This document shows positions 42,299 to 47,260 of a stretch of 64,000 nt of DNA, piece by piece. Where the stretch lies: positions 312,501-376,500 of the forward strand of contig NC_013173.1 of assembly GCF_000023225.1 (NCBI RefSeq), given 5' to 3'. The translations under genes and the position numbers were made by a program. The notes under the pieces were generated by a model. The model did no database searches. It was given only the letters and a program-made list of their open reading frames with translations, and was not told the DNA's origin. The DNA is from Desulfomicrobium baculatum DSM 4028. GTDB taxonomy: Bacteria; Desulfobacterota; Desulfovibrionia; Desulfovibrionales; Desulfomicrobiaceae. Numbering within the stretch: the stretch's first letter is position 1; the number at the start of each line of letters is the position of its first letter.

Positions 42299-43276
42299 TT
42301 AGTCCTGGTCGGGATTGAGTATCTTCTTGTCGAGCACGAAGACCGCTCCAATGAGCAGAAGAACGAACACGATGAAGGAGAAAAAGCCGAACCCTCCGGA
42401 GGAAGGGGCTTCCGCCGCTTCGGCATGCCCTTCGGCCGCGGCCTTTTCCACGGTCGGGTCCGCATGGGCGGCGTCCGCCTGTTCGGCTGGCGCCTGCTCG
42501 GCCGGAGCGTGGGCATCCTTTGCCGGTTCTGCGTGCATGGCGGGTTCGGCGTGGACCGGGGGCGTCACTCCGCCCAGGAGCTCGGTCTGGTTGGGATGAG
42601 CGCCCAGAATGTTCACCTTGCCGGTGAGGATGTCGTACACGGCTCCAATCACGATAACCCGGCCGTCCTTGGCCCGGTCGGCGATAGCGTGGCTGGTGTC
42701 GAGCAGGTCTTCGATGGCCTGCCAGACATTGGTCTCGATGGCCTGGACGATGAGTTCGGGAGTTTCGGCATCCGGGTGATCATGGCGAGCCTTATCCACC
42801 GCAGGCACGATGTTGTCGACCAGGGCGGGAATGCTGCCATGGACCTCGGCCCCCGTGGTCACGGCCGTGACGGCGCCGCAGTAGGAGTGTCCGAGCACCA
42901 TGAGCACCGGCGTGCCGAGATGGTCCACGCCATATTCGGCGGACCCGATTTCGTCCGTGTCGGCCACGTTGCCGGCGACCTTGATCACAAACAAGTCTCC
43001 AATCCCTTGATCGAAAAGGATTTCAACCGGGACTCTCGAATCGGAGCAGGCGATGACCGTAGCGAAGGGGGCCTGTCCTTCCGTGGTGGTTAGCAGACGC
43101 CTGGAAAAACTGGTGTTGGGGTGGGTCGATTGGCCCAGGGCGAACCGCAGGTTTCCTTCGGTGAGCATCTTCAATCCATTTTCGGGACTTACGGGATGAG
43201 CGCCAGGAGATGACGCCATGACCGAAAGCGGAGCAAAGACAAGCAGAAAGACCAGGACAAGACGTTTGATGAACAT
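42299..43276 (-). CDS. Periplasmic, membrane-anchored beta-class carbonic anhydrase
   Basis: A 325-residue enzyme interconverting CO2 and bicarbonate. It has an N-terminal signal peptide (MFIKRLVLVFLLVFAPL...A) and a beta-CA domain (about 30-225) with zinc ligands C77 (CSDSR), H130 and C133 (GHSYCGA) and the catalytic D79/R81 dyad. A long Ala/Glu/His-rich linker (about 235-295) and a C-terminal helix (FFSFIVFVLLLIGAVFVL) with DKK at the end follow. The anchored-periplasm layout is unusual for this class. A zinc-less paralogue follows upstream on the same strand. Confidence 0.92.
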   Translation of the reverse strand: MFIKRLVLVFLLVFAPLSVMASSPGAHPVSPENGLKMLTEGNLRFALGQSTHPNTSFSRRLLTTTEGQAPFATVIACSDSRVPVEILFDQGIGDLFVIKVAGNVADTDEIGSAEYGVDHLGTPVLMVLGHSYCGAVTAVTTGAEVHGSIPALVDNIVPAVDKARHDHPDAETPELIVQAIETNVWQAIEDLLDTSHAIADRAKDGRVIVIGAVYDILTGKVNILGAHPNQTELLGGVTPPVHAEPAMHAEPAKDAHAPAEQAPAEQADAAHADPTVEKAAAEGHAEAAEAPSSGGFGFFSFIVFVLLLIGAVFVLDKKILNPDQD

Positions 43277-43499: not shown

Positions 43500-44318
43500 T
43501 CAGCCTTTGAGCACAGTCTTGTCCATGAACACAATCACTCCGATAAGGGCGGCGATGAATACAAGGACAAGCATGAAGCCGGAGCCTCCGGATTCCTGCG
43601 CGGTCTGGGCGTCGCCTGCGGCTGCGCCGTGGTCTGTTTCGGCGGGAGCTGCGTGGTCTTCTGCCTGGGCGGCGTCTTCCTTGACGACGGCTTCATGGGA
43701 TTCGGCGTCCTGACTTTCTTCCACCGCAGGAGCCGAAGTCGTCTGCGTCTCGGCCACGGCTTCGGTTTCGGGCGCGATTTCTGCCGCTGTTTCAGCCGCC
43801 ACTTCGGTCTCCCCGGAAGGCAGCGTGAGTAGGTACTGTCCGACCAGAATCTGCAGTTCGGGGTGTGTGCCAAGAATCGTGACGGCTCCGCTCTGCGCGT
43901 CGACCACTGCGCCCACGACGGAAATCTGGCCCTTCAATACCGCATGGATCAGGTCTGGAGAGGCCACCAGCGTGTTGGCGTAGACCGCCCACACCGCTTC
44001 TTCTTCCAGCCCAAGAACGACAATCAGGGGGACGTTTATGTCCGTGCCCTGCACCGCAAGGCCGGTCTTGGGCCCAAAACCGCCTTCGGGCTTGACTACG
44101 GCGAGCTTTGGCTCGACCAGACCGAAAAGGTCGGTCACCGGTGCGGAGATGGCCGGATCGGCGATGACGATGGCCACGGGCGCCGGTTCCAGGCTTTGCT
44201 CCAGAACGAACTTTTCATTGCCCAGGGCCAGCGCCTTGAGGGCGGCTTCGGGAGCGGCGGCCAGAGCGGACGCGGCAACGGCACAAAAGAGTACCGTCAG
44301 GGAGAGGATTCTTTTCAT
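43500..44318 (-). CDS. Zinc-ligand-less paralogue of the neighbouring carbonic anhydrase
   Basis: A 272-residue protein with the same layout as the gene at 42299: signal peptide (MKRILSLTVLFCAVAASALA), a CA-like core, an acidic Ala/Glu linker and a C-terminal helix ending in VFMDKTVLKG. The core aligns by eye: ALKALALGNEKFVLEQS with LKMLTEGNLRFALGQS, and VVGAVVDAQSGAVTILGTHP with VIGAVYDILTGKVNILGAHP. The metal sites are gone: CSDSR became ADPAI (53-57) and GHSYCGA became GLEEEAV (103-109). It cannot bind zinc in the normal way and is probably a pseudoenzyme partner. Confidence 0.85.
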   Translation of the reverse strand: MKRILSLTVLFCAVAASALAAAPEAALKALALGNEKFVLEQSLEPAPVAIVIADPAISAPVTDLFGLVEPKLAVVKPEGGFGPKTGLAVQGTDINVPLIVVLGLEEEAVWAVYANTLVASPDLIHAVLKGQISVVGAVVDAQSGAVTILGTHPELQILVGQYLLTLPSGETEVAAETAAEIAPETEAVAETQTTSAPAVEESQDAESHEAVVKEDAAQAEDHAAPAETDHGAAAGDAQTAQESGGSGFMLVLVFIAALIGVIVFMDKTVLKG

Positions 44319-44351: not shown

Positions 44352-44558
44352 TCAGGGAGTGTCCGGGCCCGTATCATCCCCGGAGCATAATCCTTGTTTG
44401 TACGCTTCGATGGCGTCCTTGTGCGCGCTGGCCAAGACGTCGCTCCCGCAGTACCTGCAGGAGATGCGCGCCACGGCTCACCTGCCCCTGATCTGCGCCG
44501 GTTTGCCGCAGATCGGGCAGGGAATGTCGAGGTTTTCGCGGGACTGGTCCGAACGCAT
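44352..44558 (-). CDS. Tiny zinc-ribbon ORF with one in-frame TGA (possible selenoprotein)
   Basis: Beginning at ATG 44558, which overlaps the stop of the Tim44-like gene (TAATG), the frame reads 26 residues with CPICGK, then TGA (44480-44478). It then continues in the same frame for 41 residues with CRYCGS to a final TGA at 44354-44352. Read through, it is a 68-residue zinc ribbon with two CxxC pairs. A hairpin resembling a bacterial SECIS starts 14 bases after the TGA. Alternatives are a TGG-to-TGA nonsense change, or a second start at the GTG just after the TGA. Confidence 0.5.
44443..44463 (-). promoter_or_regulatory. SECIS-like hairpin downstream of the in-frame TGA
   Basis: On the minus strand CTCCTGCA pairs with TGCGGGAG (eight pairs, one G-T) around loop GGTAC. 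The loop begins with G, 22 bases after the TGA, within the range described for bacterial SECIS elements. No bulged U is seen in the stem. It overlaps codons of the second CxxC, so base pairing could be incidental. Confidence 0.4.
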
Positions 44559-45409
44559 TATTTTTCCAATTGCTGAATGCCTTCCACGACCCAGTGCTTG
44601 GCGCCGCCGGTTTCGTAGCGGCTGAAATGCCACGCTTCGCGGACCTGTTCCGCCGGAGCCGAAGTCGAATCCTCGCGCAGCATGGTATCGAAGAGAACCG
44701 TGGCGATGGTCTGGTTGCCGACGGCTTTAACTTCAAGCAAGGATGCTTCAAGAAACAGGATCTCCGTCTTGCCGGGATTGGGGTCCGCTTCGGCCTGGGA
44801 CTGGATTTCAGCGAAAACCTCCGTGGAGGTGAACTGGCGCAGATCATCAAGGTCGCGGGCATCCCATGCGGCCTGCAAGCGGGTGTAAGCGGCCTTGGCG
44901 CCGTCCAGAAATTCCCGGGCGTCAAATCCCGCAGGATACTCCGGGGTCGAAGTCGATGTATGGTTCTGTGCGGTGCGCAGGTTGTCCCATGCTCCGCGAT
45001 TCATGTCATGCGTCTGGGAAGGTCCTCCGGCAGTCTGAGCGGCGGGTTGCCTGCTACGCAGAAAACGCATCAGCAAGAAGAGGCCGCCGCCGATGAGCAG
45101 AATATCCATAAAGCCAATGCCGGAAAACGCTCCGCCAAAAAAGAGGGAACCAAGCAGTCCGCCCATGAGCATTCCGCCGAGCATTCCGCCGAACATCCCG
45201 CGTCCGCCCATGGGGGCAGCGCCGGGAGCTGCCTGCTGTGAGGGGGTGGAGGTTGGAGCCGCGGGCTTTTGGTAACTTTTGGAATAGGATGGCTTGCTCC
45301 CGAAGGAGCCGCCGCCGCCCATGCGTCTTGCGTCGGCCAGATCGGGCATGGTCAACAGAATAAGGCCCAGGCTGAGAATGATGGCTCCCAGGAATGAGAA
45401 TTTTGTCAC
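44558..45409 (-). CDS. Tim44-like domain membrane protein
   Basis: A 283-residue protein starting at GTG 45409, chosen for the AAGGAGG site 4 bases upstream. It has an N-terminal signal or membrane helix (VTKFSFLGAIILSLGLILL), a Gly/Ser/Pro-rich low-complexity stretch, and further hydrophobic Gly/Met-rich helices (about 70-115: GGMLGGMLMGGLLGSLFFGG). A C-terminal Tim44-like (NTF2-fold) domain (FLDGAKAAYTRLQAAWDARDLDDL...) ends the protein. Its bacterial role is not established. Its stop overlaps the start of the zinc-ribbon ORF. Confidence 0.85.
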   Translation of the reverse strand: MTKFSFLGAIILSLGLILLTMPDLADARRMGGGGSFGSKPSYSKSYQKPAAPTSTPSQQAAPGAAPMGGRGMFGGMLGGMLMGGLLGSLFFGGAFSGIGFMDILLIGGGLFLLMRFLRSRQPAAQTAGGPSQTHDMNRGAWDNLRTAQNHTSTSTPEYPAGFDAREFLDGAKAAYTRLQAAWDARDLDDLRQFTSTEVFAEIQSQAEADPNPGKTEILFLEASLLEVKAVGNQTIATVLFDTMLREDSTSAPAEQVREAWHFSRYETGGAKHWVVEGIQQLEK

Positions 45410-45689: not shown

Positions 45690-45781
45690 TGGCGGAGAGG
45701 AGAGGATTCGAACCTCCGGTACCCGTTGAGGTACACACACTTTCCAGGCGTGCGCCTTAAACCAGACTCGGCCACCTCTCC
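45690..45781 (-). tRNA. tRNA-Ser (anticodon GGA)
   Basis: A 92-base type II tRNA on the minus strand. It has acceptor GGAGAGG/CCTCTCC, D-arm GCCGAG..., anticodon stem CACGC/GTGTG with loop CTGGAAA (anticodon GGA, reading UCC and UCU), a long variable arm GTACC/GGTAC, and T-arm with TTCGAAT. CCA is encoded. The variable arm and discriminator G identify it as serine. Confidence 0.96.
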
Positions 45782-45956: not shown

Positions 45957-46217
45957 ATGAAGACCTTGAGTATCCGCGGCGTGGATGAGGATTTAGGTAA
46001 ACTCATCAAGATTGCAGCAAAAAAAGAAGAAAAAAGCGTCAATAATTTCGTGTTGGATGTCCTGCGCAAACAGGTCGGAACAGGCAAGGAGAAGCGATTT
46101 TCGCGGGAGTGGCATGACCTGGACAGCCTTTTCGGCTCGTGGAGCGCCGAGGAATATGCCGACATCCAGGGCAGGATCGATGCGCAGAGACAGGTCGACG
46201 ATGAGCTTTGGAAATGA
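45957..46217 (+). CDS. vapB: VapB-type antitoxin
   Basis: An 86-residue protein with an N-terminal ribbon-helix-helix (MKTLSIRGVDEDLGKLIKIAAKKEEKS reading as strand, helix, helix), FitA-like, which should bind its own promoter. The C-terminal half (WHDLDSLFGSWSAEEYADIQ) should wrap the toxin. It has a GGAGG site and overlaps vapC by 4 bases (ATGA), the classic toxin-antitoxin arrangement. Confidence 0.88.
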   Translation: MKTLSIRGVDEDLGKLIKIAAKKEEKSVNNFVLDVLRKQVGTGKEKRFSREWHDLDSLFGSWSAEEYADIQGRIDAQRQVDDELWK

Positions 46218-46600
46218 ACAGAATACTGATCGACACCAATATTTATTCCGGAGCGTTGCGCGGCGATCAGGAGCTTATCCGGGTTTTGCGGGGAGCCGAA
46301 CACATTGGCCTGAGCGCCATATCCCTGGGCGAGCTTTTTTCGGGGTTCAAAGGGGGAAACAGGGAGGAGGAGAACAAAAGGGAACTCGGCATATTTCTCG
46401 ATTCTCCACGGGTGGCGCTGTATCCGGTGGACGAGTACACCGCCGAGCATTATTGCTCCATTCTCGATCAACTGCGCCGTAGCGGCACGCCCATACCCAC
46501 CAATGACATCTGGATAGCGGCTATAGCCTTTCAACACGGATTTGCGCTGTTCACGCAGGACCGGCAATTTTCAAAAATTGAAGGCCTGCTGCTCCGCTAG
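46214..46600 (+). CDS. vapC: VapC-type PIN-domain ribonuclease toxin
   Basis: A 128-residue PIN nuclease that typically cleaves tRNA or rRNA. The acidic metal-binding residues are seen in LIDTNIYSGAL (Asp near residue 7), SAISLGELFSGF (Glu), and TNDIWIAAIAFQHG followed by FTQDRQFSKI. The ATG at 46214 overlaps the antitoxin stop; a TTG two codons upstream is less likely. It looks intact. Confidence 0.9.
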   Translation: MNRILIDTNIYSGALRGDQELIRVLRGAEHIGLSAISLGELFSGFKGGNREEENKRELGIFLDSPRVALYPVDEYTAEHYCSILDQLRRSGTPIPTNDIWIAAIAFQHGFALFTQDRQFSKIEGLLLR

Positions 46601-46690: not shown

Positions 46691-47122
46691 TCACAGTTGC
46701 TGCCTTACCCACGCCTGGATTTGACCTGCGGGCATGGCTCCGGCCGTGCGTGCGGTCTCTTTGCCATGTCGGAAGAGGACCAGACTTGGCACGGACTGGA
46801 TGTTGAAACGTGAGGGGACGGCGCGCTGGGCTTCGGTGTCCATCTTGGCCAGGATCACCTGCCCTTGAAGGGCCGCCGCAGCCTCGGTAAAGGCTGGCGC
46901 CATCATCTTGCACGGCCCGCACCAGGGCGCCCAGAAATCTACCAGCACAGGCAGAGCGGAACGGGAGACGAACCGCTCGAAAGTCTGGTCCGTAAGTTCG
47001 ATCGGATGGGCGGGCAGAAGGGGGGTCGCGCATTTCGCGCAGACCGGGTTCTGGCGGATGCGTTCGGTCAGGACGGCGTTGATGGTCCGGCAGTTTGGGC
47101 AGACGGCATGTATTTTTTCCAT
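46691..47122 (-). CDS. trxC: Thioredoxin TrxC (thioredoxin 2)
   Basis: A 143-residue cytoplasmic thioredoxin with an N-terminal zinc ribbon (VCPNCRTINAV and PVCAKCA) before the thioredoxin fold with active site WCGPC (FWAPWCGPCKMMAP) and the cis-proline in SVPSLVLFRHG. The zinc ribbon distinguishes TrxC from TrxA. Ribosome site GGAGG is 8 bases upstream. Leftward single gene. Confidence 0.94.
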   Translation of the reverse strand: MEKIHAVCPNCRTINAVLTERIRQNPVCAKCATPLLPAHPIELTDQTFERFVSRSALPVLVDFWAPWCGPCKMMAPAFTEAAAALQGQVILAKMDTEAQRAVPSRFNIQSVPSLVLFRHGKETARTAGAMPAGQIQAWVRQQL

Positions 47123-47260
47123 GAGGTTGGCCTCCGGTTTGTGGTGGGTTAGAACGTATTGAGAATAAACATTATTAGGCGCAGGGCAAGGTGATGAAAG
47201 AAGATGGGGATGAGTTACGGCACGCGAGCCGTTGTCAGCGTGGCCCTCAGCACCGTTCCA

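Follow-up and report, generated by a model that had tools for sequence, protein, structure and literature searches.

The window, by which we mean the whole stretch of 64,000 nucleotides of Desulfomicrobium baculatum DSM 4028 DNA that was analysed, contains a short frame that looks broken by a TGA after 26 codons and runs on in phase to a second stop. The first-pass annotation had described this frame (44558-44352, minus strand), its TAATG overlap with the preceding gene, the TGA, the motifs CPICGK and CRYCGS and an eight-pair hairpin, all of which were found as described on direct re-reading. The features of the locus are:

42299-43276, minus strand: beta-carbonic anhydrase gene (PF00484, 130.8 bits)
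43500-44318, minus strand: downstream protein that clusters with beta-carbonic-anhydrase genes, assigned by clustering (no Pfam match)
44352-44558, minus strand: predicted selenoprotein gene, 68 codons plus stop, with one putative Sec (U27) and conservation across the TGA
44436-44472, minus strand: hairpin with predicted lower stem (fold of the single sequence, -20.7 kcal/mol)
44443-44463, minus strand: core bSECIS-like hairpin of 8-9 pairs, CTCCTGCA-GGTAC-TGCGGGAG, apical loop GGTAC or GTA
44448-44459, minus strand: second CxxC (C34, C37; CRYCGS), presumed zinc knuckle 2, inside the hairpin; invariant in 80 aligned members
44478-44480, minus strand: in-frame TGA, candidate Sec codon, residue 27; kept as TGA, with Cys in the natural homologues L180, L203 and L204
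44508-44519, minus strand: first CxxC (C14, C17; CPICGK), presumed zinc knuckle 1; invariant in 80 aligned members
44558-45409, minus strand: Tim44-like gene (PF04280, 63 bits), with a GTG start after AAGGAGG by our reading

If the TGA at 44480-44478 is rendered as U, the predicted product is MRSDQSRENLDIPCPICGKPAQIRGRUAVARISCRYCGSDVLASAHKDAIEAYKQGLCSGDDTGPDTP. Its ATG (44558-44556) and the stop codon TAA of the Tim44-like gene (44560-44558) have one base in common, and the frame is closed by the second TGA at 44354-44352. The Tim44-like product has a signal-peptide-like N-terminus. On the downstream side, 43500-44318 looks like a degenerate beta-carbonic anhydrase paralogue beside the intact one. 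Upstream of the Tim44-like gene and on the same strand lies a tRNA-Ser (GGA; 45690-45781); also observed were a small gene of HicB/ribbon-helix-helix type with a PIN-domain gene behind it (45957-46600; PF05534, 23.2 bits, and PF01850, 57.6 bits), resembling a toxin-antitoxin pair, and a Thioredoxin 2-like gene (46691-47146; PF00085, 109.8 bits) with an N-terminal CxxC zinc-ribbon part, whose PF21352 match (24.5 bits) is below the cut-off.

One account of such a frame is that the TGA is an ordinary stop, produced by a TGG-to-TGA mutation or a sequencing error, which would leave a stub or pseudogene of 26 codons beside a chance hairpin. Conservation of the codon speaks against this. In a six-frame search of the 199 genomes of the order, matches were obtained in 42; all 13 matches within the genus (the window's own included; 16 genus genomes examined, of which G039, G048 and G079 gave no match) contain exactly one TGA, at the aligned codon, and the stop-free matches inspected from this search (L035-L038) are Cys paralogues scoring above the cut-off of NF041197, a family model described below. 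When a profile (A2) built from 25 members with the GxU motif was run on 395 genomes of the phylum, 58 of them gave matches, 60 rows in all. Above 36 bits, 50 of the 52 rows contain an internal TGA (in five the match extends far enough to include another stop), the two without it (G572, G234) both reading GKC at this codon, and the TGA occupied the aligned codon in 30/30 of the rows above 36 bits that were inspected as loci. Eight weaker rows, six stop-free and two with TGA, were excluded from this count; five of the stop-free ones lie at sites of NF041197 paralogues and the sixth, in G286, is ambiguous. The frame is also maintained beyond the TGA: a comparison of nine close relatives over the codons 3' of it found 190 synonymous pairs out of the 378 that differ in this frame, against 77/390 and 69/361 in the shifted frames, so that, judged by synonymous changes, selection on the frame persists past the TGA.

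To the ordinary-stop account may be added the possibility that the TGA is read as Trp, either by a near-cognate tRNA or after reassignment of the code, with no selenocysteine involved. A pattern scan of the species-genome collection was run with the third base of the Sec codon left free (TGN), so that Trp, Cys and TGA were all able to appear. It yielded 85 stretches (73 TGA, 10 TGC, 2 TGG), among which the A2 HMM (E<=1e-5) accepted 70 with TGA and 2 with TGC as members, counts that are not independent because some loci belong to genomes already met in the order search; members with Trp (TGG) or TGT numbered zero among the 85. Pseudomonas, Mycobacterium and Comamonadaceae genomes are among the sources of the 13 rejected stretches (3 TGA, 8 TGC, 2 TGG). 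Of the two TGC members, L180 (E 6.8e-20) clearly belongs to the family as a Cys form, and L179 (E 8.5e-6; Marivita, an alphaproteobacterium) is probably a chance match aided by the common pattern. Five of the 85 stretches (L195-L199) are included in the codon count and were left out of the hairpin, neighbour and tree analyses. The natural Cys forms L180, L203 and L204 are all GxC (GKC in the latter two). The homologue comparison proposed in the first-pass annotation thus gives TGA or Cys at this codon and never Trp. A Trp or reassigned reading is hard to credit: the natural homologues carry Cys instead, the same gene ends in another TGA, and tRNA-Sec, SelA and SelB are present along with a conserved bSECIS-like hairpin.

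The genome encodes SelA (625 bits), SelB (362 bits), SelD (323.6 bits, itself with one internal TGA) and tRNA-Sec (86.3 bits), all above their cut-offs; the machinery that the first-pass annotation had proposed to look for is present, with SelD in addition. In the phylum, selB was found in 353 of 395 genomes, including, by our reading of the matches, all 50 genomes with TGA and the two with Cys, a co-occurrence that says little because selB is so common.

The GGTAC loop of the core hairpin starts 22 nt past the TGA, and a ninth pair can shrink it to GTA. According to the excerpted text of PMC13188914, a bSECIS element has a loop of 3-9 nt, a stem of 4-16 bp and a G in the first two loop bases; the same excerpts give a distance of 16-37 nt from the UGA and a free energy of at most -7.5 kcal/mol. 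The window gene falls within these ranges (-17.4 kcal/mol, loop 21-23 nt past the UGA), and in a best-hairpin scan 76 of the 82 family genes had a hairpin of -7.5 kcal/mol or lower, a threshold that discriminates poorly because control hairpins average -8.6 kcal/mol. Stability by itself, one of the points in favour of a chance hairpin, is unremarkable for the window gene (z -1.49; 13/200 shuffles equally stable), and the synonymous-shuffle test of its hairpin stretch gave p 0.03. With synonymous shuffles, 74 of the 82 family genes are below their own mean (mean z -1.05; 20/82 at p<=0.05), compared with 22/31 Cys controls (mean z -0.55; 4/31 at p<=0.05). Free energy was dropped as the sole test for a SECIS element on account of this weak separation.

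Pairing was assessed against 500 shuffles on 70 distinct genes aligned without gaps (A3), with the hairpin register picked after viewing the aligned sequences. Three of five measures exceed the shuffles: 84.9% of cells are paired (72.4 shuffled, 0/500 reaching this), 104 cells are changed on both sides (41.5 shuffled, 0/500), and the covariation score is 0.395 (0.187 shuffled, 0/500). The other two, rated by the tool as the least sensitive to relatedness, give no excess over the shuffles, with 5 pairs changed on both sides (4.7 shuffled, 373/500) and 24 further pair types (21.8 shuffled, 51/500). When the partners were slid by 1-3 columns, which keeps relatedness, 33-53% of cells were paired and 3 to 42 were double-changed. 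At the pair adjacent to the loop, 21 sequences have C-G, 20 have G-C, 9 have A-U and 3 have U-A. The 5' member of this pair occupies the middle position of its codon, which means that changes there also alter the amino acid. RNAalifold likewise arrives at this stem. As a control, 30 Cys-coding paralogues with equal CxxC spacing gave 53.3% paired cells and one double-changed cell.

The hairpin overlaps the codons of the second CxxC, whose TGC triplets self-pair, and two of its nine pairs fall within the two Cys (TGC) codons and are nearly forced. This overlap, the modest stability and the two null covariation measures are what the ordinary-stop account can draw on; set against a TGA kept in 13/13 genus and 50/52 phylum matches, the lack of a Trp member in the TGN scan and selection on the frame past the TGA, they leave it very little room. 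Ten genes from genomes of Thermodesulfobacteria type (L126, L142, L148, L157, L161, L163, L168, L174, L187, L192) have an eight-pair hairpin closer to the TGA, with its loop 17 nt past it as compared with 22-23 bases in the main set; the codons forming it differ, and the encoded protein motif is the same. These shifted hairpins are 97.5% paired with thin covariation (2 cells, 11/500). L184 and L186 were placed in the main set, not the shifted set, before alignment.

The proposal of the first-pass annotation that the TGA encodes selenocysteine is thus strongly supported by computation: TGA is exchanged with Cys, the hairpin is conserved with compensatory changes, SelA, SelB, SelD and tRNA-Sec are present, and the family forms a clade. 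The contrary outcomes named in the first-pass annotation were not observed, as the scan gave no Trp member, the hairpin is conserved and the genome has the selenocysteine machinery. From the DNA, we regard it as almost certain that the TGA at 44480-44478 would be decoded as selenocysteine.

Among described families the product is closest in kind to NCBIfam NF041197 (CxxC_Se_CxxC), the 'dual CXXC motif small (seleno)protein'. Like the members of that family, the product is small and has two CxxC motifs, its Sec falling in the alignment column that holds Sec or Cys in them, and the spacing C-x2-C-x9-[UC]-x6-C-x2-C is common to the GxU and RxU groups, the latter also having Cys paralogues. OS_HP3, the form named in print, has RxU, whereas the window protein has GxU (GRU), another C-terminus and a place in a separate clade. 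The window protein does not reach the 40-bit cut-off of NF041197 (26.2 bits as a protein, 17.5 bits in the genome search). That it is the canonical NF041197 member of this genome was considered and rejected, as a canonical selenoprotein with its own TGA is found elsewhere (L039, G000:C1:1560114-1560272, 68.2 bits), likewise with a similar hairpin after the TGA, over the second CxxC. Within the order, NF041197 scores above cut-off in 174 of 199 genomes. Eight of ten GxU members chosen from other lineages (including the Cys form L180) pass the cut-off, so that the model spans both groups. In a tree of 112 sequences, the GxU (82) and RxU (30) groups were separated with 100/100 support, on 43 columns and with a warning for long branches.

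Lar restriction alleviation proteins (TIGR03655, PF14354) are similar in being short, with two CxxC-type pairs and a weak profile match; the window protein scores below their cut-offs, with 19.8 of 39.6 bits for TIGR03655 and 19.7 of 28.6 bits for PF14354. To our knowledge, no Sec occurs in proteins of the Lar type.

OS_HP3 was reportedly first described in a paper of 2007. In the excerpted text of PMC13188914, a review of 2026, it is listed as NF041197 with the motif RxU (Table 1), next to a 'hypothetical protein DW', listed as NF041197 with the motif GxU; excerpts of PMC12013277 attribute DW to deep-Sep and name, in Table 3, only two Desulfosarcina genomes for it. As far as these excerpts go, DW resembles the window protein in its GxU motif, its filing under NF041197, its occurrence in Desulfobacterota and its Sec and Cys homologues, and the GxU group is probably DW, a match made by motif and family label. 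In the same partial texts the accession SMF39960.1 is given for DW (PMC13188914) and for OS_HP3 (PMC9312934), so that the two names appear to be mixed in print. The first-pass annotation had called the protein a possible new selenoprotein; going by these excerpts, the kind to which the GxU proteins belong has already been published (NF041197/OS_HP3, probably also 'hypothetical protein DW'). Among titles and abstract openings of the literature on these selenoproteins, no functional study of this family was found. The window protein is a new member of this known kind, below the present model threshold.

Gene neighbourhoods were surveyed at 92 family loci, with some genomes represented twice and many loci short, and gave 16 neighbour clusters present at four or more loci. 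A Tim44-like gene lies upstream at 18 of the 92, always on the same strand, and at 16 of these 18 its end lies no more than 25 bases from where the family gene approximately starts; at 18 of 92 there is a gene of carbonic-anhydrase type, all on the same strand. The coupling to a Tim44-like gene suggested in the first-pass annotation therefore holds within the genus, where 12 of 13 loci have this neighbour (L019 being the one without), and does not extend to the family as a whole. Tim44 was rejected as a general partner, since other lineages have DNA topoisomerase or NrfD-type neighbours instead. A DNA topoisomerase gene occurs at eight loci (directly upstream in seven, all of one lineage), a phosphorylase-family gene at six (directly downstream in five), a ferredoxin-type gene at seven (six on the other strand), and a YceD gene 320-470 bases further on at four. 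At eight loci of one deltaproteobacterial lineage (L120, L123, L125, L136, L141, L145, L175, L189) an NrfD-type membrane gene on the other strand faces the selenoprotein gene; at these loci a ferredoxin-type gene was mostly seen beyond it, on the opposite strand. The NrfD-type and ferredoxin-type neighbours may represent the dsr membrane complex. In G039 and G048 (L205, L206) the selenoprotein gene is absent and the gap between the Tim44-like and carbonic-anhydrase-type genes is 88 bases, in which no CxxC remnant was found in three frames; in G079, other sequence follows the Tim44-like gene. Patchy neighbours and gene absences together indicate that the selenoprotein gene is an extra that comes and goes, not a fixed part of a Tim44 operon.

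For the protein, a structure model was computed from the 80-member alignment, in which C14, C17, G25, U27 (or Cys), C34 and C37 are invariant and A30 and R31 nearly so. It has strands at 11-13, 20-24, 31-34 and 40-42 and a helix at 47-58, with a mean pLDDT of 66 and residues 11-40 in blocks at 75-82. The strand order would put residue 27 where the chain turns from one central strand to the next, at the hairpin tip. The two knuckles would come after the first and third strands and U27 between the second and third, an order that would fit a zinc ribbon. Matches to solved structures are weak, the best by Foldseek having E 0.09 (ZifS) and the best by Z having 3.2 (an archaeal ribosome chain, which we take to be L37Ae); they are to zinc ribbons that resemble one another, from a model with a pLDDT of 66. 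Further weak neighbours are presumably small-subunit ribbons of RNA polymerases I, II and III. Ribbons of the TFIIS/Rpb9/C11 type offer a comparison of fold: in TFIIS, functional residues are located at the tip of the zinc-ribbon hairpin, and these are acidic, in place of Sec.

We consider a redox-active Sec mounted at the tip of a zinc ribbon to be the probable mode of action, with a probability of roughly 0.6. A ribosome reaching UGA 27 would meet the hairpin, with its loop 22 nt further on within the codons of the second CxxC, which would recruit SelB and Sec-tRNA for Sec to be inserted; with selenium lacking, only the stub of 26 residues would be made. Given the TAATG overlap, translation is probably coupled to that of the Tim44-like gene. 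The product would be a 68-residue zinc ribbon whose four Cys should hold one zinc ion. Its Sec would sit apart from the zinc site, in the Gly-x-Sec-x-x-Ala-Arg turn that caps the central hairpin, with the C-terminal helix to follow. The ribbon may then serve as a scaffold or docking element; the invariant Gly and the near-invariant Arg would hold the exposed selenolate, which could act as redox nucleophile on an oxidant, or on a disulfide or persulfide of a partner. We infer zinc binding, the position of the Sec relative to the metal, the redox function and translational coupling.

Two other functions of a true selenoprotein were weighed against the tip-mounted redox Sec. The Sec might be a metal ligand or part of a metal or metalloid sensor, for example as a fifth soft ligand for Cu, Hg or Fe, as four Cys and one Sec within 24 residues of a small zinc-ribbon shape could suggest. 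This we think unlikely: two CxxC motifs already make up a complete four-ligand site, the predicted topology, from a model of middling confidence, sets residue 27 in a turn away from the CxxC knuckles, and a metal-resistance family is absent among the eight annotated clusters of the 16 recurrent neighbour clusters. Slightly less likely again is a regulator bound to nucleic acid or to the ribosome, with the Sec as redox switch at the binding tip. Such a regulator would fit the ribosomal L37Ae-type, NrdR and, presumably, RNA polymerase small-subunit ribbons among the weak fold neighbours, as well as the seven loci of one lineage at which a DNA topoisomerase gene immediately precedes the family gene; against it, the fold matches are all weak (Z at most 3.2; Foldseek E no better than 0.09), and ribbons of this kind resemble one another anyway.

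A wider interpretation, which we offer tentatively and hold to be doubtful as a whole, is that the GxU group is a selenoprotein family in its own right, conserved in Desulfobacterota from Desulfomicrobium to Thermodesulfobacteria and almost always using Sec, in which a catalytic tip selenolate on a zinc finger would be linked to the energy metabolism of sulfate reducers, as a redox switch or as a reductant, the position of the SECIS element having switched over the same motif. If this is true, the GxU type would stand apart, among the sites of selenoproteins, from the thioredoxin-like UxxC/CxxU ones.

Desulfomicrobium is known mainly for its NiFeSe hydrogenase. Here, a gene that looks broken, with a stop after 26 codons, is argued to be intact and selenium-dependent. 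The current NCBI model covers two paralogous groups and leaves the window protein below its cut-off, so that annotation may truncate the recoded gene. Nearly all family members found have Sec in preference to Cys; the gene is naturally missing in places and a few forms carry Cys, and this near-constancy, together with the few exceptions, would open the question of why selenium is used to experiment in a protein of very small size.
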